DNA of 64,000 nucleotides. It comes from Owenia fusiformis (lineage: Eukaryota; Annelida; Polychaeta; Sabellida; Oweniidae). The stretch is from the NCBI GenBank assembly GCA_903813345.2, contig CAIIXF020000008.1, forward strand, positions 16,538,822 through 16,602,821, read 5' to 3'. This document shows, piece by piece, positions 8,040 through 57,569 of this stretch. The notes beneath the pieces are model-generated. The model was not told the origin of the DNA, did no database searches, and worked only from the letters and a program-made list of their open reading frames with translations. A program made the translations under genes and the position numbers. How positions within the stretch are numbered: position 1 is the first letter of the stretch; every line of letters starts with the position of its first letter.

Positions 8040-8370
8040 TTGTGTCAGTAATATTTTTTATATGTACCTTCAAATATGAAAAACATAGCAGCTTAAACAT
8101 GGGTTATATATTTTATTAACACCTTTGGAAGAATGCAGTTAAAAGTGAAATAAATCTATGCATTAAAAATAGCAAAATAGCAAACACTTGCATAGTGCAA
8201 TTATACACGATAACACTCAATAATGCATGATTTGAATATTTGGATTATGCCAAGTACTGTATAACCTCGTATTGAGAATGCATCAATCAATGCGGACAAT
8301 GCTTGTTAATGCCTGTTGCATTTGTTAATGCATATTTATAATTTTGAGATATGCTTTAGCTTGCATTGAT
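8040..8370. other. non-coding spacer, left edge of array
   Basis: AT-rich. The last 40 bp or so (from about 8330) recur at about 20222-20280 next to another finger-gene fragment, so the edge of the duplicated block lies near 8330. Confidence 0.5.
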
Positions 8371-8376
8371 AATGCA

Positions 8377-8770
8377 TCACATTATAGATAGAAATTTTGA
8401 GGGTACACTCCGCTGTACGAGCTTCTCATGCTTCTCCATCGCTCTCTTAACTTCATTACTTAAGCTGGTGCTAGTAAATGATTGTACTACAAGTTCATCT
8501 GTTGTATATTGGACCTCCCCCATAACTTCATCAACAGCCTCCTTGATTGGGGGTCTACTAGAGGGCCAGTTGTAAAAGCCCCTGGAATGCACCTTTGTCG
8601 ATGCTCACAGAAATCTTGGAGAGAGTGGAATACTTCGTTACATTTTTTGCACATGCCATTTGTATTGTCAGTAAAAAAATTTCTTAGGTGTAGGGATTTT
8701 TTGGATCTCCAATCAAAAGTTTCGTCGCAAATTTCACATCCACCAGGAGGCACCCTTCAACACAAGCGCC
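8377..8770 (-). pseudogene. C2H2-type two-finger protein, unit 1
   Basis: Minus strand from about 8760. It opens with PPGGCEICDETFDW, then a second Cys pair in CKKCNEVFHSLQDFCEHRQRC, i.e. two C2H2/C2HC-type fingers, followed by an acidic linker (EEVMGEVQYTTDEL in the continuing frame). It ends with the family motif AMEKHEKLVQ..VPSKF (to about 8377). An AG acceptor-like site precedes the first finger, so it is probably a 3' exon. At least one frame change separates the fingers from the C-terminal motif. Paralogues lie at 11596, 15932, 43865 and 46946. It may be a DNA-binding protein; function unknown. Confidence 0.65.
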
Positions 8771-8990
8771 GATTAAATGATAAATGTTAATATTCATCAA
8801 GACTTATTGAGCAGTTTAGTTTCACATATCCAATGTTAGGCTTAACGCTGCTTTAAAATTAAGGAAGAACCCTGCAACACAAGTGCTGATGAAATTATAA
8901 ATGTTAATATTCATCAAGACTTATTGAGCAGTTTAGTTTCACATATCCAATGTTAAGCTTAACTGCTTAACGCTGCTTTAAAATTAAATT
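8770..8990. repeat. tandem duplication of about 110 bp
   Basis: A segment reading ATGTTAATATTCATCAAGAC, and continuing to a TTTAAAATTA end, occurs twice in direct succession (about 8780-8870 and 8895-8990). It lies between the finger exon and the bZIP-like exon and is specific to unit 1. Confidence 0.8.
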
Positions 8991-9165
8991 TTCAACGGCA
9001 TTTCAGAGCATCTCCTCCTTTCTTGCAGACACAAGGTCTGCTTCCAGGAGGCAGATCTCGTCCTCCAACTGCCTGTTTTTTTTGACCCAATATATTCTTT
9101 TCTTTAACGAAGTTCTTCTTTTTCGTATTTCTTTTCTCCTTAAAATTGATATATATAATATAAAG
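8985..9165 (-). pseudogene. bZIP-like basic coiled coil, unit 1 (partial)
   Basis: Minus-strand reading gives a basic stretch IRKRRTSLKKRIYWVKK, then a heptad-like helix RQLEDEICLLEADLVSARKE. A TGA then follows at the position of the Arg before NAVE in the paralogues. The N-terminal MDPxWN part, present in units 2 and 3, is missing because about 1.1 kb is deleted between this gene and beta in unit 1. The best-preserved relative is at 47681-48082. Likely a dead copy. Confidence 0.6.
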
Positions 9166-9192
9166 TTTTCTTTTACATATTTTTACAAAGTA

Positions 9193-10162
9193 TTAGTGCT
9201 TGCTGTTTTCCCACGGTCGATAATGATCTGACAACACAGATATGTCAGATGCTTGAGTTGGGACGGCGACTTCATCCACATCTGACATCTCTGGTGGATG
9301 TGTTATTGTAGCAGGAGCATTGTGTTTAGTTGTATTTTTCTTTCGTCTTTGCCTCAGCTTCAGCTTGAATTCCTCAGCTGTCTCCATGGCATCCCTGACC
9401 TTTTGCAATAATTGAAAATTCTTCTTTCCCTGCACATGAATCACGAAAACCTCTTGACTCATAGGATCTGGGTGACTAACTTCCGAAACTGTTTGTTTTG
9501 CTTCTGACTTTGGATTTGGCTTATACTTAAGTTGATGCTCATCTATTTATAGGTCTTTGACAGGAGTTGTTGTAACCCATACATCAAACAAAACCTGACC
9601 TGAGATGTCTTCCAAGGTGAAAACCACGTTGGTATCTCGACCTTCCATCTTTGATGGACAGGAATTCTCACAACGGAACCAATATTTCTTGTTGTTAAAT
9701 GCTGTACAGTTAGCCCCCTTTGGCCATTCAAGAGTTACGCTCATTCAGTTGTCTAGCAATTGTTCGTAATCGCAGCGTTGCCCACTTGCCATCAGCCAAT
9801 GATCCCCTTCCTGGCTCCTATGTTTCTTGCAAGCTTTTACCCCCTTCTTGTGCAGACCATTTTACCTCAGTTGGGCTTGAGCACGAATAAACAACCTGTT
9901 GGTGATGTACCCTGTCCTAACGAACAAGACATCTGTCATAGTTCCAGGTTGTAGATACATCCTACCTGTTGTACCCGATGGTATACACGTAGTAGTTCCA
10001 ATTTGTTCGACCATCTGCACCCAGAAATTGTCTGGACCAGCAAAATCCGCTGTTTCCACATATTTTCCCTGGGAAAGGGGGAAATCATTAAGAGTGGATG
10101 TTCTCTCTGTGTCCTCATTCGTGCGTGCTTGAAGCTGCATCATTTGTCTGCTTTGGATTCAT
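9193..10162 (-). pseudogene. p53-like protein beta, unit 1 (broken)
   Basis: The start is the Met at 10162 (MNPKQTNDAASS), matching beta3. A deletion and frame change follow at once. The DNA-binding domain is then readable at 10143-9862: DFAGPDNFWVQMV (compare p53 YPGPHHFEV of strand S1), TTGRMYLQPGTMTDVLF, and LFIRAQAQLR, ended by AGG-TAA where units 2 and 3 have a Lys codon. Next come KACKKH, RCENSC and FTLEDISGQV, then a 15-bp loss before FDVW. The end (9462-9193) is an intact tetramerisation domain, EVFVIHVQGKKNF, with a basic tail and the longest C-terminus of the three copies. Several lesions, so pseudogene. In the family the product would be a tetrameric nuclear transcription factor. 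Confidence 0.8.
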
Positions 10163-10244
10163 GATTATTATTTGTGAACTAAAAAAATAGATAAAAACTA
10201 TTGAATAGGACATCTGATAAAGAGCGAGGCAGCACCTGTTAGAT

Positions 10245-10950
10245 TTAAATGATAGAGTTTGTAAATCTCTGCAAGCACTGCTCTGCATCTTTATCAGCCG
10301 ATCTATTAACATTTCTGATGCATTTGGACTCCTCCTCTGGTACTGCTTCATAGAGCAATAAAGTATCCCTAAATTTGCTCAGTGTATCATAATGTTCTCT
10401 GTTTTGAGTGAGTACACACTTGTACTGGGTTGCTGGAGCAGGTGGTACTGGGGCAACATGGGCCAACTGAGTTTGAATTCTTGAGTGATATTTGTTCGCA
10501 TTTCTTCTTCTACCAGATTCCTACACTCTACTGGATTGTTTGTTACTTCAACAAACATAATGGTGGCGGCTATCCTATAGCCAAGTGACGATTCCAGTGT
10601 TAAAATGACCATCACCCCGACTTTCGCACCACTAGCTTGAACAGTTGGATCGAAAGCGAAGAGACATCTCTGTACTGAGACATTGTGCGTAAAGATGTTG
10701 AAAGGAATATCGACACTTATAGGGTGGTTTGTATTCTTTCCATCGTCATAGTATACTTCTTGATGGTCAAATCTTATCCAATGTCAAGCTTCTGACATCA
10801 TTCTATCCTTCTGAGATCATTCTATCCTTCTGAGATCATTCTATCCTTCTGAGGTACAGCAGGCCAGGCTCTAAAAACCGGAACATTACCTTTGCCAATG
10901 AATACACCACATGCTCTTAGAATGGTGTCTCTTGGTGGTTGAACCGAGCA
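10245..10950 (-). pseudogene. p53-like protein alpha, unit 1 (broken)
   Basis: Minus strand. The upstream part (about 10949-10855) reads WVQPPRDTILRA, like the S2/S3 region of p53. Its 5' end is cut by the unit junction. The middle (about 10783-10520) reads the p53 S5-S10 region: a segment like WIRFDHQEVYYDDG, then VILTLESSLGYRIAA and MFVEVTNNPVECRN. The tail at 10466-10245 has a tetramerisation-like helix, YKCVLTQNREHYDTLSKF, followed by PEEESKCIRNVN. Three copies of a 19-bp repeat interrupt the frame between the first two parts. A frame change also separates domain and tail in every copy, so either it is dead or a small intron lies there. Confidence 0.7.
10798..10854. repeat. 19-bp direct repeat, 3 copies
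   Basis: TCATTCTATCCTTCTGAGA in three consecutive copies (last base varies). Units 2 and 3 carry two copies at 15157-15194 and about 19342-19379. The repeat lies inside the alpha DNA-binding domain, and 19 is not a multiple of three. Confidence 0.9.
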
Positions 10951-11595
10951 GGTTCACAAGGCTCGGATGCATTGCTCATGCCTTGTCATATCTTGAAGTT
11001 CAGAGTCAAATTCACAGTACTCTTGGTAAGGTTATGGTGACTATATACACTGTAATTATCAACAGCCTTACCATTACTGTGCTTGTTCATAATATCACAT
11101 TCTTGTAGATAACAAAATGATCTTTCAATTTTGATTTCACTGTCTAATATTTTTTTTATTGATCATGATTGATGACAAAATTGAAGCTTAGTTATTTATT
11201 ATCAGCTTCGTTGCCAATACAGTATATCAAATTATTCACCTACGGTTCATCAGCAAGTCATGATACATTTTTTTATCATTCCAGGTGATCTTGCTTAAAA
11301 GTATCTGGTTTTGCCACTTTTTCTTGTTCAGAAACCTCCTTCTTTGGGATGTTGGCAGTAATTTTGAGGACACAGGAAATTAATCATATATGACAAGGTT
11401 GTCCTCCAGGCTGCACAAATATATTGTTGGTGTAGTGAACATATTCAGGCATTCCTGGTTAACCATGTTTTGGGCTAACTCCATCACAAGTAATAATAAA
11501 CATCACTTTTATTTTGTCAATGTTTTGTAAAACCTGGACTCCCAAATTATTGGAACTCTGCATAGCAAGCAATGAGCATCATTTAGTGCAATTTA
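10951..11595. other. spacer between units 1 and 2
   Basis: Non-coding sequence repeated almost unchanged at about 15290-15930. The only open frames are short and repeat-derived. No domain seen. Confidence 0.6.
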
Positions 11596-12030
11596 CTAAT
11601 TAAGCACTTGCATTTCCCATTCGATTGTATTTGATGACATGTTAAATACAAATTTGGAGGGTACACCCCCCTCTACGAGCTTCTCATGCTTCTCCATGGC
11701 TCTCTCAACTTCATTACTTAAGCTGGGGCTAGTAACATGAGTAAATGATTGTACTACATGTACAAGTTCATCTGTCGTATGGACCTCCTCCATTACTTCT
11801 TCGACAGCCTCCTCAATGGGGGGGGGGGGTCTACTAGAGGGCCAGTCATAAAAGCCCCTGGAACGCACCTTTGTCGATGCTCACGGAAATATCGGAGAGA
11901 GTGGAATACTTCGTTACATTTTTTGCACATGCCACTTCAATTGTCAGAAAAATGTTTTCTTAGGTGTAGGGATTTTTGGGATCTCCAATCAAAAGTTTCA
12001 TCGCAAATTTCACATGCACGAGGAGGTACC
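11596..12030 (-). pseudogene. C2H2-type two-finger protein, unit 2
   Basis: Probable 3' exon after the acceptor TGTTGCAG at about 12031. The first residues VPPRACEICDETFDW carry the first Cys pair. Next come a linker and finger remnant, a proline run encoded by 12 C on this strand (11818-11829), an acidic stretch (EEVMEEVHTTDELVHVV), and the C-terminal motif VERAMEKHEKLVEGGVPSKF then TIEW, ending at 11596. The C-terminal 90 codons are open; the finger part lies in another frame. It is the same family as the finger genes at 43865 and 46946. Confidence 0.65.
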
Positions 12031-12114
12031 CTGCAACACAAGCGCTGATGAAATAATAAATGTTAATTTTCACATATCCAGTGTTAAGCTTAACACTGCT
12101 TTAAAATTAAACTT

Positions 12115-12433
12115 TCAACGGCATTTCGGAGGATCTCCTCCCTTCTTGCAGACCAAATGTCTGCTTTCAGGAGGCAGATCGCCTCCTCCAACTGCCTGTT
12201 TTTTCATTTTTCCTGCATTAGACTGTCCCTTATTTAACCCTATATATTCTTTGCTTTAGCGAAGTTCTTCTTCTATGAATTTTTTTTCTCCTATGATCAG
12301 GGTTAGCTTCTAACAGCAACTTCATTTCACTACGGCTAGAGGGGAGAATTGTCTCGTCAGATGGCAATGGCAATGAAAGAAATACATCTACCTCAGGTCG
12401 ATCAAGACATTGGAGATTCCACATTGGGTCCAT
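12115..12433 (-). pseudogene. bZIP-like protein, unit 2
   Basis: Starts at Met 12433, just after a TTACAG acceptor-like site, and reads MDPMWNLQCLDRPEVDVF, then SLPLPSDETI, SRSEMKLLLE, and a basic segment RRKKIHRRRTSLKQRIY. A TAA follows at the K of YRVK, caused by one missing A compared with unit 3. Beyond it a second stop, TGA in the segment like QEK-stop-KNRQLEE, is shared with unit 3. The coiled coil LEEAICLLKADIWSARREE continues beyond. The intact relative at 47681-48082 shows the expected full reading. Confidence 0.65.
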
Positions 12434-12439
12434 ACTGTA

Positions 12440-13490
12440 ATTATAGGCAGAAATTCATTCATTGCCACAATCTTTGTAGCCACTTAGATACAACTATTAT
12501 TTCGCTAATTATTTAACTTTTCCTACTCTACATTTCCCCATCTTAAATCCATTTTAGTTCTATCTGCTACTACATGTATATCGGGTGTCTCAAAAATGAA
12601 TAGCTTTTTGGCAAGTATTTTCTCAAAGTCAAACTCACTGAAAAATACAAAATAGCCTAGCCAAGGAGTATCATTAGCAAAATATGTGTTATTCGAGTAC
12701 TAAGAAATTCAAAATAGCATGTCAAAACGTCCAATACCAGAGCTCTTGGATGAGACTTTCAAAGGTATCAGGTGATGGTATCTATCAATTATTCAGAATA
12801 GCTTGTCTGTGTTCTAATTAATTTGTTTGAATTTATTTATACTTTGATATTGGCTATTTTCACATACTGTCTTTAATTCAACACTACCTAAATAATATGT
12901 AACCGACCTTTAAGATATTTATAGTACTCAATGAATATACGCTAAAGTGACTCAAGTAAGTTATCAGACTTTGGCTTATCTATTGAAATTACAAATTGCT
13001 TCCCATTTTTGGAACAAACGCTATGAAGTTCTTATTCCGTAGCTCCAGTATGGGATCTTTTGACATGCTATCTTAAATCTTTTTCTTATTTTTGTAACTT
13101 GCTAACAATACTCCTGAGCTACTTTGTACATGTTTTCAGTGAATTTGGTTAATCAATTGCTGAGAAAACACTTATCAAAAAGCGATTTATTTTTTGGGGA
13201 CACCCGATTTATGCTTTCTTAGTCAATATTCTAGTAATTACTTTACACTTGCTAAAGTTGTTAACTTAAATTCCTGTAGAATGTTCCTTTACTGCTTAAA
13301 ATATATTTAGGTGAGAGATGATTTTTTTAAAATTTAATACAGTTTGTTATTGATATTGTCTCCCCATGAATAATACCATTTTTGGAGATATCATTATCTA
13401 AAGTTTCATAACCATAGACTTTTAATGCAAATAATGTAGTTGACTGTGATATGATACTGTTTATTGGTTTCTTTTACATATTTTATGTAT
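12440..13490. other. non-coding spacer with a MITE
   Basis: Between the bZIP-like and beta genes of unit 2. Apart from the inverted-repeat element at 12581-13207 nothing is recognised. The same spacer occurs in unit 3 (16740-17790). Confidence 0.6.
12581..13207. mobile_element. MITE with inverted terminal repeats, unit 2
   Basis: Left end TCGGGTGTCTCAAAAATGAA with AGCTTTTTG further in. The right end is its near reverse complement, CAAAAAGCGATTTATTTTTT then GGGGACACCCGA. Similarity between the arms extends inward to about 70 bp (TTTTCTCA and CACTGAAAA blocks on both sides). No coding capacity is seen, so it is a non-autonomous DNA transposon. The same element sits at the same place in unit 3. 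Confidence 0.75.
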
Positions 13491-13494
13491 TAGT

Positions 13495-14519
13495 ATTAGT
13501 GCTTGCTATTTTCCAAGGGTCAATAATGATCTTACACCACAGATATGTCAGATGCTTGAGTTTGGACGGCGACTTCATCCACATCTGACATCTCTGGTGG
13601 ATGTGTTATTGTAGCAGGAGCATTGTGTTTAGTTGTATTTTTTTCTTTCGTCTTTTCTTCTGCTTCAGCTTCAATTCATCAGCTGTCTCCATGGCATCCC
13701 TGATCTTTTGCAATAATTGGAAATTCTTCTTACCCACACATGAATCACGAAAACCTCTGACTCAATAGGATCTAGGTGACTAACTTCCGAAACTGTTTGT
13801 TTTACTTCTAACTTTGGATTTGGCGTATACTTAAGTTTATGCTCATCTATTTCTAGGTCTTTGACAGGAGTTGTTGTAACCCATACATCAAACGAAACCA
13901 GACCGATTACCTGACCTGAGATGTCTTCCAAGGTGAAAACCACTTTGGAATCTCGACCTTCCTATGTTTGATGGACAGGAATTCTCACAACGGAACCAAT
14001 AGTTTCTGTTAAATGCTGTACAGTTAGCCCCCTTTGGCCATTCAAGAGTTACGCTCATTGAGTTGTCTAGCAGTCAAGAGTTACGCTCATTGAGTTGTCT
14101 TGCAGTTGTTCGTAATCGCAGCGTGGCCCACTTGCCATCAGCCAATGATCCCCTTCCTGGCTCCGATGTTTCTTGCAAGCTTTTACCCCCTTCTTGTGCA
14201 GACCATTTTTCCTTCGTTGGGCTTGAGCATGAATAAACAACCTGTTGATGATGTACAACATCCGTCATCGTTCCAGGTTGTAGATACATCCTACCTGTTG
14301 AAACCGATCGTATACATGTTGTAGTTCCCCTTTGTTTGACCATCTGCACCCGGAAATTGTCTGGACCAGCAAAATCCACATGTTTTCCTTGGGAAAGGGG
14401 AAATCATTAAGAGTGGATGTTCTCTCTGTGTCCTCATTCCAACGGAAAACTGGGGCCCTGGTAACAGTAGATGAGGAGTGTGTGTTTGAAGCTGCATCAT
14501 TTCTCTGCTTTGAATTCAT
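13495..14519 (-). pseudogene. p53-like protein beta, unit 2 (broken)
   Basis: Start Met 14519 (MNSKQRNDAASN), then APVFRWNEDTERTSTLNDFPF. One C fewer than unit 1 in a C-run shifts the frame just before the DNA-binding domain. DFAGPDNFRVQMV, STGRMYLQPGTMTDV and following are read in the next frame. About 17 bp are missing after TMTDV, and a 32-bp direct duplication (about 14041-14103) shifts the frame again. GVKACKKH, RCENSC-type, VIGLVSFDVWVTTTPVKDL and the tetramerisation domain SEVFVIHV follow in pieces. Clearly dead; useful for reconstructing family history. Confidence 0.75.
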
Positions 14520-14603
14520 GATTGTTGCTTGTGAACTAAAAAAAAATAGATAGAAACTATTGAAAAGGGCATCTGATAAAGAGCGAGGCAGCACCCGTTA
14601 GAT

Positions 14604-15290
14604 TTAAATGATAGAGTTTGTAAATCTCTGCAAGCACTGCTCTGCATCTTTATCAGCCGATCAATTAACATTTCTGATGCATTTGGACTCCTCCTCTGGT
14701 AGTGCTCCAGAGAGCAATAAAGTATCCCTAAATTTGCTCAGTATATCATAATGTTCTCTGTTTTGAGTGAGTACACACTTGTACTGGGTGGCTGGAGCAG
14801 GTGGTGCTGGGGCAACATGGGCTAACTGAGTTTGAATTCTTGAGTGATATTTTTCCGCATTTCTTCTTCTACCAGATTCCTACACTCTACTGGATTGTTT
14901 GTTACTTCAACAAACATAATGGTGGCGGCTATCCTATAGCCAAGTGACGATTTTAGTGTTAAAATGACCATCACCCCGACTTTCGCACCACTAGCTTGAA
15001 CAGTTGGATCGAAAGCGAAGAGACATCTCTGTACTGAGACATTGTGCGTAAAGATGTTGAAAGGAATATCGACACTCATAGGGTGGTTTGTATTCTTTCC
15101 ATCGTCATAGTATACTTCTTGATGGTCAAATCTTATCCAATGTCAAGCTTCTGACATCATTCTATCCTTCTGAGATCATTCTATCCTTCTGAGGTACAGC
15201 AGGCCAGGCTCTAAAAACAGGAACATTACCTTTGCCAATGAATACACCACGTGCTCTTAGAATGGTGTCTCTTGGTGGTTGAACCCAGCA
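14604..15290 (-). pseudogene. p53-like protein alpha, unit 2 (broken)
   Basis: Same layout as alpha in unit 1: a truncated first part (from about 15288), two 19-bp repeats at 15157-15194, then the DNA-binding-domain part open from about 15142 through MSVDIPFNIF, RCLFAFDPTVQ, VILTLKSSLGYRIAA and NNPVECRNLVEEEM, to a TAG at 14822. The tetramerisation-like tail is at about 14825-14604 in another frame. The cut at 15288 joins alpha directly to spacer sequence, so the 5' part of the domain is missing. Confidence 0.7.
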
Positions 15291-15931
15291 GGTTCACAAG
15301 GCTCGGATGCATTGCTCATGCCTTGTCATATCTTGAAGTTCAGAGTCAAATTCACAGTACTCTTGGTAAGGTTATGGTGACTATATACACTGTAATTATC
15401 AACAGCCTTACCATTACTGTGCTTGTTCATAATATCACATTCTTGCAGATAACAAAATGATCTTTCAATTTTGATTTCACTGTCTAATATTTTTTTATTG
15501 ATCATGATTGATGACAAAATTGAAGCTTAGTTATTTATTATCAGCTTCGTTGCCAATACAGTATATCAAATTATTCACCTACGGTTCATCAGCAAGTCAT
15601 GATACATTTTTTTATCATTCCAGGTGATCTTGCTTAAAAGGATCTGGTTTTGCCACTTTTTCTTGTTCAGAAACCTCCTTCTTTGGGATGTTGGCAGTAA
15701 TTTTGAGGACACAGAAAATTAATCATATATGACAAGGTTGTCCTCCAGGCTGCACAAATATATTGTTGGTGTAGTGAACATATTCAGGCATTCCTGGTTA
15801 ACCATGTTTTGGGCTAACTCCATCACAAGTAATAAACATCACTTTTATTTTGTCAATGTTTTGTAAAACCTGGACTCCCAAATTATGGGAACTCTGCATA
15901 GCAAGCAATGAGCATCATTTAGTGCAATTTA

Positions 15932-16320
15932 CTAATTAAGCACTTGCATTTCCCATTCGATTGTATTTGATGACATGTTAAATACAAATTTGGAGGGTAC
16001 ACCCCCCTCTACGAGCTTCTCATGCTTCTCCATGGCTCTCTCAACTTCATTACTTAAGCTGGGGCTAGTAACATGAGTAAATGATTGTACTACATGTACA
16101 AGTTCATCTGTCGTATGGACCTCCTCCATTACTTCTTCGAAGGGGCTAGTAACATGAGTAAATGAGTTGATGCTCCCGGAAATATCGGAGAGAGTGGAAT
16201 ACTTCGTTACATTTTTTGCACATGCCACTTCAATTGTCAGAAAAATGTTTTCTTAGGTGTAGGGATTTTTGGGATCTCCAATCAAAAGTTTCATCGCAAA
16301 TTTCACATGCACGAGGAGGT
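15932..16320 (-). pseudogene. C2H2-type two-finger protein, unit 3
   Basis: As in unit 2, with the acceptor TGTTGCAG near 16323 and the first Cys pair in RACEICDETFDW. Here the middle is rearranged: a segment around 16135-16175 duplicates ACTAGTAACATGAGTAAATG and replaces part of the linker and the C-rich run. The C-terminus (VERAMEKHEKLVEGGVPSKF, IEWEMQVLN) is identical to unit 2 and open from 16228 to 15932. Confidence 0.65.
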
Positions 16321-16404
16321 ACCCTGCAACACAAGCGCTGATGAAATAATAAATGTTAATTTTCACATATTCAATGTTAAGCTTAACACTGCTTTAAAAT
16401 TAAA

Positions 16405-16727
16405 CTTTCAACAGCATTTCGGAGGATCTCCTCCCTTCTTGCAGACCAAATGTCTGCTTTCAGGAGGCAGATCGCCTCCTCCAACTGCCTGTTTTTTCAT
16501 TTTTCCTGCATTAGACTGTCCCTTATTTTAACCCTATATATTCTTTGCTTTAGCGAAGTTCTTCTTCTATGAATTTTTTTTCTCCTATGATCAGGGTAAG
16601 CTTCTAACAGCAACTTCATTTCACTACGGCTAGAGGGGAGAATTGTCTCGTCAGATGGCAATGGCAATGAAAGAAATACATCTACCTCAGGTCGATCAAG
16701 ACATTGGAGATTCCACATTGGGTCCAT
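16405..16727 (-). pseudogene. bZIP-like protein, unit 3
   Basis: Open from Met 16727 to a TGA at 16497, 76 codons: MDPMWNLQCLDRPEVDVF, SLPLPSDETI, then HRRRTSLKQRIYRVKIRDSL. The stop lies inside the basic-to-coiled-coil junction. Past it, RQLEEAICLLKADIWSARRE is still readable in the same frame. The conserved TTACAG directly before the ATG looks like a 3' splice acceptor. The relative at 47681-48082 lacks the stop. Confidence 0.65.
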
Positions 16728-17800
16728 ACTGTAATTATAGGCAGAAATTCATTCATTGCCACAATCTTTGTAGCCACTTAGATACAACTATTATTTCGCT
16801 AATTATTTAACTTTTCCTACTCTACATTTCCCCATCTTAAATCCATTTTAGTTCTATCTGCTACTACATGTATATCGGGTGTCTCAAAAATAATTAGCTT
16901 TTTGGCAAGTATTTTCTCAAAGTCAAACTCACTGAAAAATACAAAATAGCCTAGCCAAGGAGTATCATTAGCAAGTTGTAAAAATATAAAATATGTGTTA
17001 TCCGAGTACTAAGAAATTCAAAATAGCATGTCAAAACATCCAATACCAGAGCTCTTGGATGAGACTTTCAAAGGTATCAGGTGATGGTATCTATCAATTA
17101 TTCAGAATAGCTTGTCTGTGTTCTAATTAATTTGTTTGAATTTATTTATACTTTGATATTGGCTATTTTCACATACTGTCTTTAATTTAACACTACCTAA
17201 ATAATATGTAACCGACCTTTAAGATATTCATAGTACTCGATGAATATACGCTAAAGTGACTCAAGTAAGTTATCAGACTTTGGTTTATCTATTGAAATTA
17301 CAAATTGCTTCCCATTTTTGGAACAAACGCTATGAAGTTCTTATTCTGTAGCTCCAGTATGGGATCTTTTGACATGCTATCTTAAATCTTTTTCTTATTT
17401 TTGTAACTTGCTAACAATACTCCTGAGCTACTTTGTACATGTTTTCAGTGAATTTGGTTAATCAATTGCTGAGAAAACACTTATCAAAAAGCGATTTATT
17501 TTTTGGGGACACCCGATTTATGCTTTCTTAGTCAATATTCTAGTAATTACTTTACACTTGCTTAAGTTGTTAACTTAAATACATGTAGAATGTTCCTTTA
17601 CTGCTTAAAATATATTTAGGTGAGAGATGATTTTTTTAAAATTTAATACAGTTTGTTATTGATATTGTCTCCCTATGAATAATACCATTTTTGGAGATAT
17701 CATTATCTAAAGTTGCATAACCATAGACATTTAATGCAAATAATGTAGTTGAATGATATAATACTGTTTATTGGTTTCTTTTACATATTTTTATGTATTA
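16728..17800. other. non-coding spacer with a MITE, unit 3
   Basis: Counterpart of 12440-13490. Contains the second copy of the 0.63-kb inverted-repeat element. No gene seen. Confidence 0.6.
16875..17516. mobile_element. MITE with inverted terminal repeats, unit 3
   Basis: Same ends as the element in unit 2 (TCGGGTGTCTC ... GGGGACACCCGA) and the same flanking sequence, so it was duplicated with the unit and not inserted twice. A short extra stretch (near 16977-16990) is found only here. Confidence 0.75.
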
Positions 17801-17913
17801 GTATTAGTGCTTGCTATTTTCCAAGGGTCAATAATGATCTGACACCACAGATATGTCAGATGCTTGAGTTGGGATGGCAACTTCATCCACATCTGACATC
17901 TCTGGTGGATGTG

Positions 17914-18705
17914 TTATTGTAGCAGGAGCATTGTGTTTAGTTGTATTTTTTTCTTTCGTCTTTTCTTCTGCTTCAGCTTCAATTCATCAGCTGTCTCCAT
18001 GGCATCCCTGATCTTTTGCAATAATTGGAAATTCTTCTTTCCCCGCACATGAATCACGAAAACCTCTGACTCAATAGGATCTGGGTGACTAACTTCCGAA
18101 ACTGTTTGTTTTGCTTCTGACTTTGGATTTGGCGTATACTTAAGTTCATGCTCATCTATTTCTAGGTCTTTGACAGGAGTTGTTGTAACCCATACATCAA
18201 ACGAAACCCGACCGAATACCTGACCTGAGATGTCTTCGAAGGTGAAAACCACTTTGGAATCTCGACCTTCCATCTTTGATGGACAGGAATTCTCACAACG
18301 AAACCAATAGTTTCTGTTGAATGCTGTACAGTTAGCCCCCTTTGGCCATTCAAAAGTTATGCTCATTGAGTTGTCTAGCAGTTGTTCGTAATTGCAGCGT
18401 GGCCCACTTGCCATCAGCCAATGATCCCCTTCCTGGCTCCGATGTTTCTTACAAGCTTTTACCCCCTTCTTGTGCAGACCATTTTTCCTCCATTGGGCTT
18501 GAGCATGAATAAACAACCTGTTGATGATGTACCCTGTCCTAAGGAACAAGACATCCAAAATCCACATGTTTTCCTTGGGAAAGGGGAAATCATTAAGAGT
18601 GGATGTTATCTCTGTGTCCTCATTCCAAGGGAAAACTGGGGGCCTGGTAACAGTAGATGAGGAGTGTGTGTTTGAAGCTGCATCATTTCTCTGCTTTGAA
18701 TTCAT
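17914..18705 (-). CDS. p53-like protein beta, unit 3 (open frame)
   Basis: A 264-codon open frame, the longest in the array. Start Met 18705 (MNSKQRNDAASN), 16 bases after a pyrimidine-rich AG acceptor. The p53-type DNA-binding domain is recognisable: GVKACKKH supplies the zinc ligands equivalent to C176 and H179, and RCENSC those equivalent to C238 and C242. FTFEDISGQVFGRVSFDVW aligns without gaps to human residues 255-273, and VTTTPVKDL to the H2 region. The tetramerisation domain EVFVIHVRGKKNF aligns without gaps to 326-338. Key contacts differ: R248 is Gly, R273 Trp, R280 Lys. Compared with units 1 and 2 about 35 residues at the start of the domain are deleted, and the C-terminus is cut by an A-run frameshift. 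It may be a late pseudogene or a shortened isoform. Confidence 0.75.
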   Translation of the reverse strand: MNSKQRNDAASNTHSSSTVTRPPVFPWNEDTEITSTLNDFPFPKENMWILDVLFLRTGYIINRLFIHAQAQWRKNGLHKKGVKACKKHRSQEGDHWLMASGPRCNYEQLLDNSMSITFEWPKGANCTAFNRNYWFRCENSCPSKMEGRDSKVVFTFEDISGQVFGRVSFDVWVTTTPVKDLEIDEHELKYTPNPKSEAKQTVSEVSHPDPIESEVFVIHVRGKKNFQLLQKIRDAMETADELKLKQKKRRKKKIQLNTMLLLQ

Positions 18706-18788
18706 GATTGTTGCTTGTGAACTAAAAAAAATAGATAGAAACGATTGAAAAGGGCATCTGATAAAGAGCGAGGCAGCACCCGTTAGAT
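18706..18788 (-). promoter_or_regulatory. alpha-beta intercistronic gap with splice acceptor
   Basis: Only about 83 bp separate the alpha stop from the beta ATG. On the minus strand the gap ends CTATCTATTTTTTTTAG and then 16 bases to ATG, a textbook 3' splice acceptor. Equivalent acceptors precede beta in unit 1 and in the 44.8-kb copy (TTTTATTTTTGTAG, 12 bases before ATG). This could be a cis-spliced leader exon, or a trans-splice site of a polycistronic transcript. Confidence 0.5.
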
Positions 18789-19574
18789 TTAAATGATAGA
18801 GTTTGTAAATCTCTGCAAGCACTGCTCTGCATCTTTATCAGCCGATCTATTAACATTTCTGATGCATTTGGACTCCTCCTCTGGTAGTGCTTCAGAGAGC
18901 AATAAATTATCCCTAAATTTGCTCAGTATATCATAATGTTCTCTGTTTTTAGTGAGTACACACTTGTACTGGATGGCAGGAGCAGGTGGTACTGGGGCAA
19001 CATGGGCCAACTGAGTTTGAATTCTTGAGTGATATTTTTCCGCATTTCTTCTTCTACCAGATTCCTACACTCTACTGGATTGTTTGTTACTTCAACAAAC
19101 ATAATGGTGGCAGCTATCCTATAGCCAAGTGGCGATTCCAGTGTAAAAATGACCATCACCCCGACTTTCGCACCACTAACTTGAACAGTTGGATCGAAAG
19201 CGAAAAGACATCTCTGTACTGAGACATTGTGCGTAAAGATGTTGAAACGAATATTGACACTCATAGGGTGGTTTGTATTCTTTCCATCGTCATAGTATAC
19301 TTCTTGATGGTCAAATCTTATCCAATGTCAAGCTTCTGACATGATTCTATCCTTCTGAGATCATTCTATCCTTCTGAGGTTCAGCAGGCCAGGCTCTAAA
19401 AACTGGAACATTACCTTTGCCAATGAATACACCACGTGCTCTTAGAATGGTGTCTCTTGGTGGTTGAACCCAGCAGTAGAACGGCATAGGAATCTCTGTA
19501 TTTGCTCGGACGAACATATACTGTAGTGTTCCTGAATATACCCAATCCGGTAAATCGATGCAAAGGGCAGAACA
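18789..19574 (-). pseudogene. p53-like protein alpha, unit 3 (most complete)
   Basis: The most complete alpha copy. Part 1 (19574-19348) reads DWVYSGTLQYMFVRANTEIP and WVQPPRDTILRARGVF, matching the p53 S2-S3 region (TYSP..LY..AKTCP, PPPG..VRAM). A stop follows at the two-copy 19-bp repeat. Part 2 (19327-18923) reads YYDDGKNTNHPMSV (compare YLDDRNTFRHSVV), QRCLFAFDP, VIFTLESPLGYRIAA and MFVEVTNNPVECRN. The tail (19010-18789) reads KNREHYDILSKFRDNLLL, like the tetramerisation helix. No equivalent of C176/H179 is seen, and positions of R273 and R280 align with Glu. Frame breaks suggest a pseudogene, or small introns not resolved here. Confidence 0.75.
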
Positions 19575-19815
19575 TTAATGGACAAATACATACAAAGTCT
19601 AAATGATAAATAATCAATATACTAGTAGCTCTTCAATCCCTGTTGCACAAATGTGCATGCCAATAAGTTGCTCCCATGGGTCTAAAGAAATTATACAGCA
19701 AGGCATGGTGCAATCGATAGCAATAGCCTGTCAAAATATTACATAACTTGTCAGTCCAAATTATTTTATCAAATAGAAAAAGTAAACTACATATAGTAAA
19801 TAACTGATTTAATAA
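19575..19815. other. right edge of array, no gene
   Basis: Unique non-coding sequence next to the end of unit 3. Confidence 0.5.
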
Positions 19816-19819
19816 AAAG

Positions 19820-20222: not shown

Positions 20223-20269
20223 TGCATATTTATATTTTTGAGATATGCTTTAGCTTGCAATTGATAATG

Positions 20270-20545
20270 CATCACGTTATAGATAGAAATTTGGAGGGTA
20301 CACTCCGCTCTACGAGCTTCTCATGCTTCCCCATCGCTCTCTGAACTTCATGACTTAAGCTGGTGCTAGTAAATAATTGTACTACAAGTTCATCTGTTGT
20401 ATATTTGACCTCCTCCATAACTTCTTAGGTGTAGGGTTTTTGGGATCTCCAATCAAAAGTTTCGTCGCAAATTTCACATTCACCAGGAGGCACCCTTCAC
20501 CCATTAAGGACGAACCCTGCAACACAAGCGCTGATGAAATGATAA
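20270..20545 (-). pseudogene. finger-gene fragment (fourth array copy)
   Basis: Nucleotide similarity to 8370-8800: the GGGTACACTCCGCTCTACGA block (C-terminal motif of the finger protein) and ATCAAAAGTTTCGTCGCAAA (first-finger region) are both present, with the middle deleted. It also shares the flank at 20222-20280 with 8330-8390. A degenerate extra copy of the finger gene. Confidence 0.65.
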
Positions 20546-20548
20546 ATG

Positions 20549-21582
20549 TTAATATTTTGAAGGGCAGTCAGTGTTTTGCGGATGTACTTTATTGCACGCG
20601 CTGCATGGCGAAGTACCAGATCCCATCATGACATTTTGTAGTAAGGTTCTGTCGCGCTTTGACCAATCGACCTTTATGCCATGGTTCAGGAGAGCAGAGG
20701 TGGCCATCATACTGAATTGCTTATGATATTCGTAAAATCGAGGCCCAATGAGGTTACTGATACGAACGATTTCCTCTTGATAAATATCAAGCTCCTGATG
20801 TCTGTTTGGATATACGGACACGATGACACGTTTATATCGTCCAAATGCGGTTATGAACTCGGAGATAGACAAATTTCTCTTCAGATGTGGATCTTCATTT
20901 TTAAGTGTTATCTGTAAAGTATCAGCCGTGACAGTTCTTGCTGTACTTGAATCGAAATTTGGAATCAGAAGTACGTTAAGATTAATGTCTTTACCTTCGA
21001 GTATAGTTTTCCTCGTTACTTGCGATATTGCATCTGTGGCTAACACTGGCAGTGACTCCATATGCACCCCTTGGTTGCGAATTGTCCGCATGCGGGGGTA
21101 TCAGATGTTGCGGCTGGAGGAGTCGATGATGTTGACGGCACTTGACTCAGACCCGACGTCGAGGCATTCTCCACTTTCTCTTACAATGATTGCACAGTTT
21201 GTTGCAATTCAGTGATCATGGCGATCAAAGTAGAATTGTTCGTAGGTTCCAGATCTATTTCCCTACGAGGGAAGTCCACTTCTTCATCCGAATCACTGCT
21301 ATCCATTTCGCCTCGATCGCTTTTCTCCAGGCAATTGTCCTCATAAATGGTAATTAGTTGCTTCTTTGTTAACGATTTTGGAACTTGAAGATTTCGAAGC
21401 CCAAGTTGTTCAAGCAATTGTGATTTATTCAACGTTTTGTAATCTGCCATCTTGGAAATGAATATTAGGTGTGTAGTGGTCTCCACCAATACAAAAACTG
21501 AGCTGACCTCAGAAAATAAACAAGATATATACCAGGCTTCTAATGTGTAAGTTATCTTACATTCAAGCCATTTTAGCGACAT
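20549..21582 (-). pseudogene. Gag-like ORF of a YR-type (DIRS/Ngaro-like) element
   Basis: Two adjoining frames. The N-terminal frame 21582-21181 contains MADYKTLNKSQLLEQLGL, a SAP-like helical start, then an acidic linker. After a TAA, the second frame 21091-20549 reads NLNVLLIPNF, NLSISEFITAFGRYKRVI, LDIYQEEIVRI, FYEYHKQFSMMATSALLNHG, KVDWSKRDRTL, and ends CSACNKVHPQNTDCPSKY, a Cys/His cluster. This pattern, with the SI.EFI.AFG.YK and FYEYHKQFSA..A motifs, is typical of the first ORF of tyrosine-recombinase retroelements in invertebrate genomes. Family assignment is from memory and moderately sure. No reverse transcriptase or recombinase is seen nearby. Confidence 0.6.
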
Positions 21583-21627
21583 CTTAATGTCGTATCATAA
21601 AATAGCGTTATTCATTGAATAACTTAC

Positions 21628-43864: not shown

Positions 43865-44315
43865 TCATATGTATTGCTTAGACCATTTATAGGTGGTACC
43901 ATCTGGCAGTGTAATAGTGATTTCTGAATCCTTTCCATTTTGTAATAAATTTTCATGACGTTTAAACATTTCACTAATGCTTTCCCTGGATGGTGAGATT
44001 ACTCTGTTTCTTCCCATCTCAGAGGCAGAGACCATAGAAGGTGCAACATTAGATTCTGAATCATGTGTAGAGATATTATCATCGCTCTGGTCTTCAGTAG
44101 GTATAGCATCATTTTCCTGCCCTACAGTGACAGAAGGTTCTTTGTTTAATAAATGGCACAGTTCCTTCTTATGATGTTTATACTGTTCAATGGAATGAAG
44201 TGGAATATTACATTTTGGGCAGGTGACATCTATGTCTTGATCAAAGTGCTGTTTAAAGTGTCTTGATAGATTACTCCTGGCTGAGAAGTTCTTATTACAA
44301 AGAGAACATCTATGT
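43865..44315 (-). CDS. C2H2-type two-finger protein, 44-kb locus
   Basis: Probably a 3' exon starting after the acceptor TATATTTAATTGTAG. The first finger HRCSLCNKNFSARSNLSRHF with KQH is a good C2H2. The second, CPKCNIPLHSIEQYKHHKKE then LC, is C2HC-like. An acidic Ser-rich linker follows, then the C-terminal motif ISEMFKRHENLLQNGKDSEI and DGTTYKWSKQYI, stop at 43865. The open frame of about 150 codons is intact, unlike the tandem copies. The motif MxxHExL...SxxxxxxxDGTxxxW aligns with the C-termini of the other finger genes. Probably a nuclear DNA-binding protein; targets unknown. Confidence 0.65.
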
Positions 44316-44352
44316 CTACAATTAAATATAGATAAGAGAGTCAAAACTAATT

Positions 44353-44805
44353 TTAAACGTACATGAAAGACCTGTTGCGTTGAGAAAATTTATATTGTAA
44401 AAAAAAAAATTCTAGGGTAAACTCAATGGCACTATCTGGAAACGCTGGAGGACTCTCATACCTTACTGGAGACATGGACGGCCGTTCCGGCAAGTCTATT
44501 GATATCAGCCTCCACTGTTGACTCATTCTAAGTCTATAATTTAAAAGAATGATGGTGTCATAAATATCAATTTGATGAAAGAATTTTATAACGGCTGGTG
44601 ATGCAACGTCGCCACCCTCGACAACCTGTACTCGGAAGTGATCGGGCCCAGGAAAATCTTTCACCGCTATATCCTCTCCATGAGACAATGGGAAGTCATA
44701 GGCTGATGTGTTGTCTGTAGTTGTTCCCCAAGGGTAGACAGGTGGTGTGGCTGGTTTTCTCTCTTCTGAGTGGGAAACTCGTTGTACGACCTTTTTCTTA
44801 GGCAT
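44353..44805 (-). CDS. p53-like protein beta, 44-kb locus (truncated)
   Basis: A 150-codon open frame with Met 44805, 12 bases after the acceptor TTTTATTTTTGTAG. MPKKKVVQR is a possible nuclear signal. PPVYPWGTTTDNTSAYDFPL and DFPGPDHFRVQVVE match the S1 strand region of p53 and of beta in the array. Next come YRLRMSQQWR (counterpart of NRLFIRAQAQWR) and PVRYESPP..PDSAIEFTLEF (counterpart of PRCDYEQLLDNSMSVTLEW). The loop holding the C176/H179 zinc ligands is replaced by a shorter stretch, and the frame ends before C238/C242 in an A-run. The second half of the domain and the tetramerisation domain are missing here, the finger gene following directly. Confidence 0.6.
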   Translation of the reverse strand: MPKKKVVQRVSHSEERKPATPPVYPWGTTTDNTSAYDFPLSHGEDIAVKDFPGPDHFRVQVVEGGDVASPAVIKFFHQIDIYDTIILLNYRLRMSQQWRLISIDLPERPSMSPVRYESPPAFPDSAIEFTLEFFFLQYKFSQRNRSFMYV

Positions 44806-44879
44806 AATGTTGAGTAGCTACAAAAATAAAAGTTAATTAAAGGTAATAAATAATGGGATAGTTAGCACTGGGTAATCCT

Positions 44880-45058
44880 CTACACTATATTCTCCCCGAA
44901 TCTCTTAAGGCAATCTTCTGCATCCCGATCCGCTGCCTTGTTGACCTGTTCAATACAGCGTGTCTCATCCTCAGGAACTGCTCTTCCCAAGAGTAAAGCA
45001 ATCCCGACCTTACAAAGTATCTCATAATGATCATCACTCGCTACTAACAAGCAATGTT
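44880..45058 (-). pseudogene. p53-like alpha tail, 44-kb locus
   Basis: Minus strand reads ASDDHYEILCKVGIALLLGR then AVPEDETRCIEQVNKAADRD and AEDCLKRFGENIV, stop. It is the homologue of the alpha tail at 19010-18789 (NREHYDILSKF, PEEESKCIRNVN, DKDAEQCLQRF). The DNA-binding part upstream is gone, replaced by repeat sequence. The stop lies 75 bp before the beta start, the same arrangement as in the array. Confidence 0.65.
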
Positions 45059-45067
45059 TTCATAGAA

Positions 45068-46945: not shown

Positions 46946-47575
46946 TTATAGGGCCCCGCCACTCCACTCGCTAGTTCCCTCAGGGGTGTAAAGGACCACC
47001 TTCGAGTAAAAATTTTCCCTTATAAGGGTAACGTGCCTTTGAAAACTTTTGTCAAAGATAACGTTCTCAACATTTTGAATTTTATTTACAAGATTGTCTT
47101 GTAAGTAATGATTTGGTGGATCCCTATTCCACTCAATTGATCCTGAGAGTGAATTAAAAATAAATTTTGAATGAATATTTTGTCTTAGAAACGTTTCATG
47201 ATTTTCTAACATTTTACACAAATGTAAACTGATGTTTACTTTATTGTCTTGAATAGTATTGATGTTAGATATGACATCATGTTCCGCCGTCACCACTTCC
47301 TCCAATGCGTCTTCTATTTCGATCTCACGTTCTTGCTCATTAGTAGATTCGGAATCACTTGTTGGCTGCTGGTCATTAGTTAATCGTTGATTATTAGCAT
47401 GTTGTTGTAGACAAGGTTTGTTGTGACGTTTGAAGGAAGTATAGTTGGTAAAATCTTCGTTACAGAGACTACAGGTTGCTGCACGCTTGTCTGTGAAATG
47501 TATTTTATAATGTCTTGTTCGTCCGGACCTGCAATGTATTCTTTTTCCGCGACTGAGCATTGTTCTGGGGGAAGT
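46946..47575 (-). CDS. finger protein with two C-terminal motifs, 47-kb locus
   Basis: Exon start placed after CAATTCAG (47576-47578). The first finger has lost a base compared with the 38.9-kb copy (GAATGTTTGATGTGTGGC): PPEQCSV is in one frame, GKRIHCRSGRTRHYKIHF in the next. The ATG at 47560 restores the downstream frame but omits both first-finger Cys. The second finger CSLCNEDFTNYTSFKRHNKP then C is intact. After an acidic linker (EIEIEDALEEV) the C-terminal motif appears twice: CKMLENHETFLRQNIHSKFI with SIEWNRDPPN, and FQRHVTLIRENFYSKVVLYT with EGTSEW. 204 codons open from 47560. Possible nucleic-acid-binding protein. Confidence 0.6.
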   Translation of the reverse strand, partial: TSPRTMLSRGKRIHCRSGRTRHYKIHFTDKRAATCSLCNEDFTNYTSFKRHNKPCLQQHANNQRLTNDQQPTSDSESTNEQEREIEIEDALEEVVTAEHDVISNINTIQDNKVNISLHLCKMLENHETFLRQNIHSKFIFNSLSGSIEWNRDPPNHYLQDNLVNKIQNVENVIFDKSFQRHVTLIRENFYSKVVLYTPEGTSEWSGGAL

Positions 47576-47680
47576 CTGAATTGTACAAGATTTCTTTTTG
47601 TTTAAATGTAGATTTCACTAATGTTCAGCACACCGAGACATAAAATGAAGAGAAGACAGAAAGTTTTTAGTGGAAGAAAG

Positions 47681-48082
47681 TTAATGCTTGTATAAGATAT
47701 TTTCTACGGCATTACGGAGGATGTCCTCCTCCCTTCTGGCGGCACGTAGGTCTGCCTCCAGCAGGCGCACATCCTCCTCAAGGGCCCTTCTTTTCGCTTT
47801 CTCTCTGCGTAGAGCTTCCCTAAGCTGACTTCTGGCTAACCGTTGTCTGAGTGCAATCCGTCGTTTTCTGATCCACTTCTTCCGATCCTCATTGTAGGGC
47901 TCTAGTAACAGCCGCATCTCTGCCCGAGATGCGGCCATGATGCTCTCATGTGATGGTAGAGGTAACACCTCAAAGAGTTCTGCCAACTCATTGTCCACAT
48001 CTAATGGTTGAATGTTCCAGAAGGGATCCATGCTGTAAGAGTAATTTATAACTCCCATTAAAGGTTTTGAACTAGTTGCCAC
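47681..48082 (-). CDS. bZIP-like basic coiled-coil protein (intact)
   Basis: The best-preserved member: 133 open codons, or 116 from the conserved MDP start at 48031. TCTTACAG directly precedes that ATG, as TTACAG does in units 2 and 3, suggesting an acceptor there. Domains: MDPFWNIQPLD, an acidic/hydrophobic stretch ELAELFEVLPLPSHESI, SRAEMRLLLE, then a basic region KKWIRKRRIALRQRLARSQL and a coiled coil RRALEEDVRLLEADLRAARR, ending ENILYKH. The length and order fit a small bZIP, but the canonical N..AA..(S/C)R basic signature is not present, so this may be a basic coiled-coil protein of another kind. Possible partner of the p53-like or finger proteins; inferred only from context. Confidence 0.6.
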   Translation of the reverse strand: MATSSKPLMGVINYSYSMDPFWNIQPLDVDNELAELFEVLPLPSHESIMAASRAEMRLLLEPYNEDRKKWIRKRRIALRQRLARSQLREALRREKAKRRALEEDVRLLEADLRAARREEDILRNAVENILYKH

Positions 48083-48588
48083 ATTGTACCCATGCTATAC
48101 TCACTTATGTCCCTTTTGTAATTAACTAAATACCTCCTTCCATCGTTTCTTAATCTACTAGCATTACTCTATTTATCCTATTCACTGGTGTTAGTTCTTT
48201 TTACCTCTAAAAGAGTATTGTCACCTCATTGTTTATCTAACTCTTTTTAATTGTCTTTTAGATATATTACTTTTGTCAAGTTACTCCTTTATTGCACTTA
48301 CGTTTTGTTGTCTCATTACTCGATTAAATGCTTCTATATGATTTGATATATGAATGTCTATACGTGGTTTTTTGTTTGTTTTTTATGAATTTAATTATCC
48401 CTTCACCGGATTAAATATTCCTATATAGTTTGATATATGTATATATAAATGTTTTATGCGCATATTTCTGAATTTAATAGTCCTCCCACCAGATAAAATA
48501 TTCCTATATAGTTTGATATATGAATATATAAATGCTTTATGCACATGTTTCTGAATTTGGTTGCAATATATTCAGTAATTCACGATAA
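48083..48588. other. non-coding with degenerate repeats
   Basis: Repeats of a unit containing TCCTATATAGTTTGATATAT and TAAATG.TTTATG.CATGTT at about 48320-48560; a related stretch lies at about 49390-49570. Confidence 0.6.
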
Positions 48589-48879
48589 GGCCAAAGGACT
48601 TGGATTATTGGTTTTGCGTCCTTTTAAAATTGAATATCATCATGCAAGCAAGGTGAAAAAACAAACACAAAAATAAAACAAAATTGAAAATACCATAAAA
48701 ATTTACCGTTTTCACTAATTTTCCTTTTAAATCTTTTGATCGGCGGGCCTGCAGTACAATCTATAGTCGACTGTCTAGAGGAAATGAGGGTAAAAATGTT
48801 TGTGTTTGTTTTTTTTAACTTTTGGTCAAACTGTACACGCACGCGGACGCAAAACCAATAATCCAAGTCCTTTTGCCTA
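48589..48879. mobile_element. 291-bp MITE with 34-bp inverted ends
   Basis: Left end AGGCCAAAGGACTTGGATTA then TTGGTTTTGCGTCC; right end GGACGCAAAACCAATAATCC then AAGTCCTTTTGCCT, nearly perfect reverse complements. No coding capacity. Inserted between the bZIP-like gene and the beta tetramerisation exon. Confidence 0.85.
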
Positions 48880-48959
48880 AGTTCGGTGAACGGGACTTTA
48901 TGGTGGAAAGATTTTATTCAATTTTCTTCTTATCCTCCCATGGTCGATGGAGGTCATTA

Positions 48960-49310
48960 TCAGGCAACAAACTGAACTTCCAATGGTGAAGCTTTTGACG
49001 CAGCTGGGGCTCCCTCCTTGGGTGTGCCTACATTGGGGCTTGTAATAGTTGATGAAGCTGGAGTTTTCTTTTTGGATCCACCTCGTCCCGGTCTTTTGAC
49101 TGGCTTCTCTGCCTTTCGGACATCATCCGCTTCCTCCATGGCGTCCCACACTTTTTGTAGTAATTTGAAATTCTTTTTCCCTCTTACATGGATCACAAAA
49201 ACCTCTGGTTTTGTTGAATCATTCAAGTTGATGTTGGATGGTACTGTTGTATCCCAGATCCTTAGTTGGCATTTGCGGTACTTTCAGCTCGTCTAACTGT
49301 AAATCCTTTA
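48960..49310 (-). CDS. p53-like protein beta, tetramerisation domain, 49-kb locus
   Basis: Minus strand. DSTKPEVFVIHVRGKKNFKL and LQKVWDAMEEADDV align without gaps to human p53 residues 326-353: R333, G334, F338, A347, E349 and D352 are kept, and R337 is Asn. A basic tail (KPVKRPGRGGSKKK) and a Ser/Pro/Ala-rich end follow, to the stop at 48960; 88 codons open from the Met at 49226. Upstream, about 49310-49260, LQLDELKVPQMPTKD matches the end of the DNA-binding domain (EIDEHELKYTPNP) but in a shifted frame, so an exon boundary or frameshift lies near 49250. The rest of the DNA-binding domain is not found to the right. Confidence 0.7.
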
Positions 49311-57479: not shown

Positions 57480-57565
57480 TTAGGAAATAGGATGTCGGTC
57501 ATGAAACCAGGCTGCAGGTAATATCTTCCTGTAGTGACAGATTGTGCACAAGTCGCTTACTCACT
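57480..57565 (-). pseudogene. p53-like beta fragment, 57.5-kb locus
   Basis: Minus strand reads CAQSVTTGRYYLQPGFMTDI then LFPKI. Compare beta unit 1, CIPSGTTGRMYLQPGTMTDV then LF: 13 of 20 residues agree in the first block and LF follows in both, with no gap. It is an isolated piece of the first third of the DNA-binding domain, directly next to a hAT C-terminus. Confidence 0.6.
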
Positions 57566-57569
57566 CTTC

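Follow-up and report, generated by a model that had tools for sequence, protein, structure and literature searches.

The annelid Owenia fusiformis carries a tandem array of sequences related to the p53/p63/p73 family in a 64,000-nucleotide stretch of its genome, referred to here as the window (assembly GCA_903813345.2, contig CAIIXF020000008.1, positions 16,538,822 to 16,602,821 of the forward strand). Three units lie on the minus strand within approximately 8329–19575 (unit 1, ~8329–10951; unit 2, ~11565–15291; unit 3, ~15901–19575), accompanied by a partial fourth copy. Read on the minus strand, the modules of each unit follow the order alpha, beta, x1 (basic/coiled-coil) and x3/x2 (C2H2-like). 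Blastn and the unit spacing confirm the three tandem units proposed in the initial annotation, which described alpha and beta but omitted x1, x3/x2 and a set of divergent cassettes at 43.9–49.3 kb. The array is probably a group of linked p53 paralogues, old and divergent, that has been amplified and is now decaying as pseudogenes.

The start-to-start distance between units is 4.2–4.4 kb for most parts, with 3.3 kb between the x3/x2 modules of units 1 and 2. In gapped blastn comparisons the alpha-beta part is 90–97% identical between units, and x1 and x3/x2 of unit 1 are 70–81% identical to those of units 2 and 3. The array end is marked by a 0.4-kb repeat (19807–20212 and 21629–22043, 95% identical). 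Two open reading frames (ORFs) between its copies, 20549–21100 and 21181–21594, gave no Pfam match at E<=0.01.

The placement of beta in the p53 family is solid at the level of sequence. The beta3 ORF contains a partial DNA-binding domain and a tetramer domain, and the stretch 17914–18834 scores above the cut-off for both Pfam P53 (PF00870; 3.8e-16, 60 bits, cut-off 27) and P53_tetramer (PF07710; 3.6e-8, 33.1 bits, cut-off 20.7). A phmmer search of beta3 against PDB chains returned 102 distinct sequences at E<=0.01, and the best 60 of the 102 are all p53. The HMMER alignment upholds the gapless correspondence to human p53 C238–L289 and 326–353 that had been read from the sequence. The four zinc ligands are present in a C-x2-H and C-x3-C pattern. 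They had all been assigned to residues 238–289, but only C238 and C242 of the printed alignment lie there; the other two, C176 and H179, lie upstream as ACKKH and were paired by eye in the Pfam-matched stretch. The canonical DNA contacts are lacking from beta3 in the HMMER alignment, with R248 replaced by G, R273 by W and R280 by K. The same contact-residue changes occur in P0002, a less damaged relative of beta that, by annotation only, presumably lies elsewhere on the same chromosome, and which scores 41 bits against Pfam P53. AlphaFold2 was run on beta3 with a two-sequence alignment (beta3 and P0002) and gave a mean predicted local distance difference test score (pLDDT) of 36.4, too low for use.

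Each of the three beta copies carries at least two reading-frame lesions in the unit alignments. Beta1 has three in-frame stops, a 38-nt deletion that shifts the frame and a further 12-nt deletion; its tail (...RPWENSKH) resembles that of P0002 (...RPWEDKKKN). In beta2, a 32-bp tandem duplication shifts the frame. Deletions of 1 nt and 9 nt are common to beta2 and beta3; the unit 1 frame, DFPLSQG, matches DFPLSHG of the relative at 44.8 kb. Beta3 has its own deletion of 107 nt relative to unit 1, which together with the 1 and 9 nt amounts to 117 nt and regains the frame. Thus, beta3 is open only because the 107-nt deletion offset the earlier indels, at a cost of 39 codons. On the 3′ side of the tetramer domain, two extra A's in beta2 and beta3 shift the frame relative to unit 1.

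The case for alpha as a p53-family member is good, judged from sequence matches. A composite alpha3 translation, with X at the frame breaks, matches Pfam P53 over residues 10–158 at 1.6e-8 (35.1 bits, cut-off 27). Scanned singly, the piece 19350–19574 remains below the cut-off at 21.7 bits, and the pieces 18923–19327 and 14822–15142 give no Pfam P53 match. All seven PDB sequences listed as matches of alpha at E<=10 are p53 domains; the best, at E 0.0016, is named only “DNA-binding domain”, and the six named p53 fall at E 0.018–0.15. The alpha C-terminal piece reaches 11.4 bits against P53_tetramer, below the cut-off, and its two PDB matches are both p53 (E 0.039 and 1.4), which is at most suggestive. 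None of the five weak PDB matches of the divergent alpha C-terminus at 45 kb is a p53, and this piece has no tetramer motif. At the zinc positions, alpha has F for C238 and V for C242 in the PDB alignment, and W/E at C176/H179, provided that the stretch before the first break is coding. The p53-ordered segments described for alpha in the initial annotation do exist, but WVYS..LQYMF.RANTEIP occurs in unit 3 only, as units 1 and 2 are 5′-truncated. No SAM or transactivation domain was reported in the Pfam scan of the alpha and beta pieces.

The alpha modules are probably disrupted as well. All three contain a TGA just before HWIRF and a frame-shifting 19-bp tandem repeat, and in all three a second frame break precedes the C-terminal part. 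An additional TGA occurs in alpha2. The 5′ part of alpha is kept in unit 3 and missing from units 1 and 2. In units 2 and 3, x1 and x3 each hold an in-frame TGA. For x1 of unit 3, no Pfam family scored above the cut-off, and its basic/coiled-coil nature was judged by eye.

Table 1. Cassette modules and related sequences in the window, by unit.
Feature	Coordinates	Strand	Remarks
alpha3, divergent p53-like DNA-binding domain with weak tetramer-like C-terminus	18789..19574	-	Composite Pfam P53 match; PDB matches; shared TGA 19330-19328; 19-bp repeat 19333-19378
beta3, longest p53-family ORF	17914..18705	-	ATG 18705, 263 codons; Pfam P53 and P53_tetramer; unit alignment
x1 unit 3, basic/coiled-coil-like ORF	16386..16727	-	Start MDPMWN; by eye; in-frame TGA 16499-16497
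x3/x2 unit 3, C2H2-like finger and conserved tail	15935..16355	-	Pfam below cut-off; in-frame TGA 16232-16230
alpha2, 5′-truncated	14604..15291	-	Shared TGA 15145-15143; 19-bp repeat 15148-15193; extra TGA 14663-14661
beta2 pseudogene	13490..14519	-	1-nt, 9-nt and 17-nt deletions; 32-bp tandem duplication 14042-14106; further 1-nt indels
x1 unit 2	12096..12433	-	In-frame TGA 12206-12204
x3/x2 unit 2	11599..12062	-	In-frame TGA 11939-11937
alpha1, 5′-truncated	10245..10951	-	Shared TGA 10786-10784; 19-bp repeat 10789-10853 (3.4 copies)
beta1 pseudogene	9193..10162	-	In-frame stops 9864-9862, 9747-9745, 9549-9547; 38-nt and 12-nt deletions; C-terminus resembles P0002
x1 unit 1, 5′-truncated, disrupted	8973..9140	-	Unit comparison
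x3/x2 unit 1	8389..8786	-	Unit comparison
Partial fourth unit, x3/x2 only	20223..20556	-	20223-20424 vs 8329-8529, 94.6% identical
Divergent cassette relative	43868..45059	-	Alpha C-terminus, beta N exon, x1-like start, x3/x2 exon
Second divergent cassette relative	46949..49319	-	Beta tetramer fragment, x1, x3/x2
Short beta-like fragment	57488..57592	-	Adjoins hAT remnant

Two divergent relatives of the cassette lie further along the window, where copies have diverged to approximately 50% protein identity. The first consists of an alpha C-terminal piece (45059–44883), a beta N-terminal exon (44805–44600), an x1-like start at ATG 44526 and an x3/x2 exon (44317–43868); the likeness of the x1-like start was seen by eye and tblastn did not find it. 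The second holds a beta tetramer-domain fragment (~49319–48923), x1 (48031–47684) and x3/x2 (47560–46949). The module order common to the array and these two cassettes suggests that the cassette is old. Over 96 residues the beta fragment of the second agrees with P0002 at 94% identity, yet it is frameshifted; the P0002 gene is therefore presumably located elsewhere on the contig. A Pfam scan of ORFs and pieces from 43.9–49.3 kb, and of the public protein P0003, found no P53 DNA-binding domain; the tetramer motif at 48960–49283 was the only match there apart from C2H2 matches below the cut-off. P0003, an unnamed Owenia fusiformis protein of 496 amino acids, corresponds to four exon-like blocks on the minus strand from 47560 to 43868, exactly except at the block ends. 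This model combines the beta N-terminal exon with zinc-finger exons and one further exon (46115–45747) whose origin is unknown; the join may have arisen in gene prediction, or the gene may truly be chimeric. Pieces of x1 and x3/x2 also occur on the minus strand at 38903–39485, in the rearranged order x2, x1, x3.

Among the other features of the window are transposon remnants (reverse transcriptase, DDE_Tnp_1_7 transposase and hAT dimerisation region) at 2902–4682 (+), 30915–31343 (-) and 57227–57469 (-). A 1.6-kb direct tandem duplication spans 58990–62189 (98.8% identical), and its ORF 59853–60578, in the one copy scanned, matches Pfam Integrase_H2C2 and rve. Tandem repeats occur at 42778–43582 (satellite-like, period mainly 78 bp) and 36252–36887 (~145 bp, 4.4 copies). 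Pfam matches to HAUS6, DUF2256, DUF2789, Nup188, AAA and JmjC were dismissed as below the cut-off, and an Rfam scan returned nothing at the gathering score.

Comparison of the array with the divergent copies gives information on the past of the modules. Synonymous sites are saturated (proportion of synonymous differences, pS, 0.81–1.03), with a proportion of nonsynonymous differences (pN) of 0.26–0.37. Differences at codon positions 1/2/3 number 50/29/68 in x1 (113 codons), 28/14/38 in the alpha C-terminus (57 codons), 10/3/17 in beta N (25 codons) and 6/1/12 in the tetramer domain (28 codons). The saturation and the third-position excess therefore indicate that the modules were protein-coding, under purifying selection, for a long time.

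The dispersal of cassette material bears on its mode of origin. Scattered and rearranged copies and fragments occupy 8.3–20.6, 38.9–39.5, 43.9–49.3 and 57.5 kb of the 64 kb, and the surrounding stretch holds transposon remnants, as might be expected had p53-family genes been taken up by a mobile or viral-like element that then dispersed the cassette. No transposase, integrase, polymerase or terminal repeat tied to the cassette was seen, however, and three protein searches, which reach close relatives only, gave proteins of one contig only. Such an element is thus a most improbable source. These searches required shared five-residue words (2 of 411, 2 of 204 and 1 of 238 candidates passed), and so the absence of canonical p53 from their lists means little. 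An origin by processed retrocopies of p53 mRNAs, followed by tandem amplification as with elephant TP53, is compatible with decay and would explain why introns do not interrupt the p53-like region of beta. Vertebrate TP53 has several introns in the matching region. Against this, several different modules stand in a fixed order, diverged copies included, acceptor-like strings precede both beta and x1, and no poly-A tract was noticed 3′ of beta on reading the sequence. Retrocopies are therefore an unlikely, though not fanciful, explanation.

The acceptor-like strings have a measurable background. In the four beta copies examined, a string resembling a 3′ splice site, with 11–13 pyrimidines out of 15, lies 12–16 nt upstream of the ATG in every case. 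Equally good strings precede 7.7% (117, at >=11/15) or 0.8% (12, at >=13/15) of the 1523 minus-strand ATGs. The four x1 starts are likewise preceded by such strings, with 9–10 pyrimidines out of 15 (ATG background 17% at 10). These strings lend weak support to beta and x1 having been exons of spliced genes.

Selection between units was estimated as the ratio of nonsynonymous to synonymous substitution (dN/dS) by the Nei–Gojobori method, with gapped and stop codons dropped. Values range from 0.30 to 1.48 across segments and unit pairs, with few changes per pair. For the beta DNA-binding and tetramer domains they are 1.08 (units 1–2), 0.90 (units 1–3) and 0.64 (units 2–3), resting on 31, 34 and 17 changes with 3, 3 and 0 stops set aside, respectively. 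The alpha DNA-binding part gives 0.42, 0.65 and 0.55, and the alpha C-terminal part 1.48, 0.86 and 1.46. The beta N part gives 0.64 for units 1–2 (44 codons) and 0.30 for units 1–3 (12 codons), and is not computable for units 2–3.

Several observations weigh against pseudogene decay. Beta3 retains an ATG-initiated ORF of 263 codons, and P0001, a predicted public protein, falls inside it without any difference. Some indels sit in homopolymers, where they may reflect faults of the assembly. The dN/dS values rest on few changes; that of beta between units 2 and 3 and those of the alpha DNA-binding part are below 1, and long-dead alpha copies should show values near 1, so the lower alpha values count against simple neutrality or are due to chance. 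In a test of GT–AG pairs run without a random control, gaps bridging the first alpha break numbered 5 of 63, 6 of 62 and 6 of 54 pairs (units 1–3), and those bridging the second 25 of 76, 26 of 81 and 23 of 67. A good donor, AAG|GTAATG, occurs in all units (10889, 15229 and 19414); when alpha3a is scanned as a single piece, its Pfam match stops at residue 52, right before this donor. As short GT–AG gaps could bridge the alpha breaks, the decay of alpha is less certain. An intron at the first break is possible but unlikely, since the acceptors lack a clear pyrimidine tract and a bridge from this donor would excise not only the 19-bp repeat but also HWIRF, which aligns with p53.

These observations are also what a functional tandem cluster would show, with alpha read through short introns, beta3 a shortened live gene and at least some units working; the Pfam domains of beta3 above the cut-off, the GT–AG gaps in all three units with one good donor, the low alpha DNA-binding ratios and the acceptor-like strings in four of four copies all fit it. 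Such a cluster remains distinctly unlikely. Intact reading frames were not found: all three beta copies are disrupted, two of the three alphas are truncated and all three have breaks. Substitution stops occur in beta1 and alpha2, beta2 has its frame-shifting duplication, and beta3 is short of 39 codons. The bridges at the first break have poor acceptors and would delete HWIRF, the acceptor-like strings have the background noted above, and the three copies in the array do not count as independent cases. The “genes” of the initial annotation are thus genuine in their p53 homology, but disruption is seen in every beta copy and is probable for the alphas, and their standing as functional paralogues is doubtful.

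The preferred reading, decay of an amplified old cassette, would proceed as follows. The cassette alpha-beta-x1-x3/x2 has a long history in the Owenia lineage, as the divergence of the copies in the window shows. Head-to-tail amplification of one cassette, for which unequal crossing-over is the simplest mechanism, would then have produced three units and a partial fourth. The alpha module was probably already broken before amplification, as the shared TGA suggests if it is not spliced out. The units would now drift as pseudogenes, every beta being disrupted. An intact beta would probably have been a zinc-containing, tetramer-forming protein of the p53 fold, with the canonical DNA contacts altered or lost. 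Given the changes at R248, R273 and R280, such a beta may have been a modulator of p53-family activity or have had a different DNA specificity.

A more far-reaching proposal is that Owenia has, or had, an ancient linked pair of degenerate p53-fold proteins that served as built-in modulators of canonical p53-family members or as their antagonists, a live cassette persisting in at least one other place on the chromosome. One member would lack the zinc ligands; the other would lack the canonical DNA contacts and carry a tetramer domain, with basic/coiled-coil and zinc-finger modules adjoining. This proposal is speculative and very unlikely to hold as a whole.

Relative to the p53/p63/p73 family, beta shares the DNA-binding profile, the tetramer domain and the zinc ligands, and alpha a composite profile match over most of its length. 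Unlike the family, beta is without R248 and R273, a minimum of two zinc ligands, and probably the full four, are missing from alpha, and the frames are broken. The initial annotation knew of no standard description of tandem p53 paralogues of this kind, but tandem p53-like genes have been published for a horseshoe crab and for water fleas (PMC7210998, PMC9926121). The mangrove horseshoe crab is reported to have four tandem p53-like copies (PMC7210998), and two Diaphanosoma water fleas 23 and 12 p53-like genes through tandem and dispersed duplication (PMC9926121). The Owenia array resembles these clusters as a lineage-specific tandem expansion in an invertebrate. They are reported as genes, whereas that of Owenia is a mixed cassette of two p53 types and two further modules, apparently pseudogenised. 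Duplications of p53 in invertebrates have been described as frequent or multiple (PMC4803236, PMC5543598), and lophotrochozoan p53 loci as complex in domain structure (PMC7531772). Among other annelids, Capitella and Helobdella are reported to have one p53-family gene each, and the Alvinella p53 DNA-binding domain keeps the zinc site and the arginines R248, R273 and R280 (PMC8901663); the annelid p53 family is common to all, but Owenia has a divergent set where the others are described with a single gene or canonical residues. Elephant TP53 also exists in many extra copies, one or more of which break off within the DNA-binding domain (PMC5061548, PMC9935553); these are described as retrocopies of TP53, whereas the Owenia sequences are paralogues of old divergence set in a tandem unit of several modules. 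Among the titles and starts of abstracts listed by literature searches, with most subscription journals outside them, no account of the Owenia array was found; “Owenia fusiformis” and “p53” occurred together in one paper, with p53 in its reference list only. The Owenia array is unusual in that its repeated cassette combines two p53 types, both very divergent, with two further modules, and in its apparent decay.

At such a locus, automatic gene models such as P0001 and P0003 should not be taken as evidence for functioning p53 genes. As a locus of a deep-branching annelid, it shows the extent to which the p53 fold can drift, with zinc ligands lost in one type and contact arginines in the other. 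It may also offer a natural series of p53 copies from live to dead.

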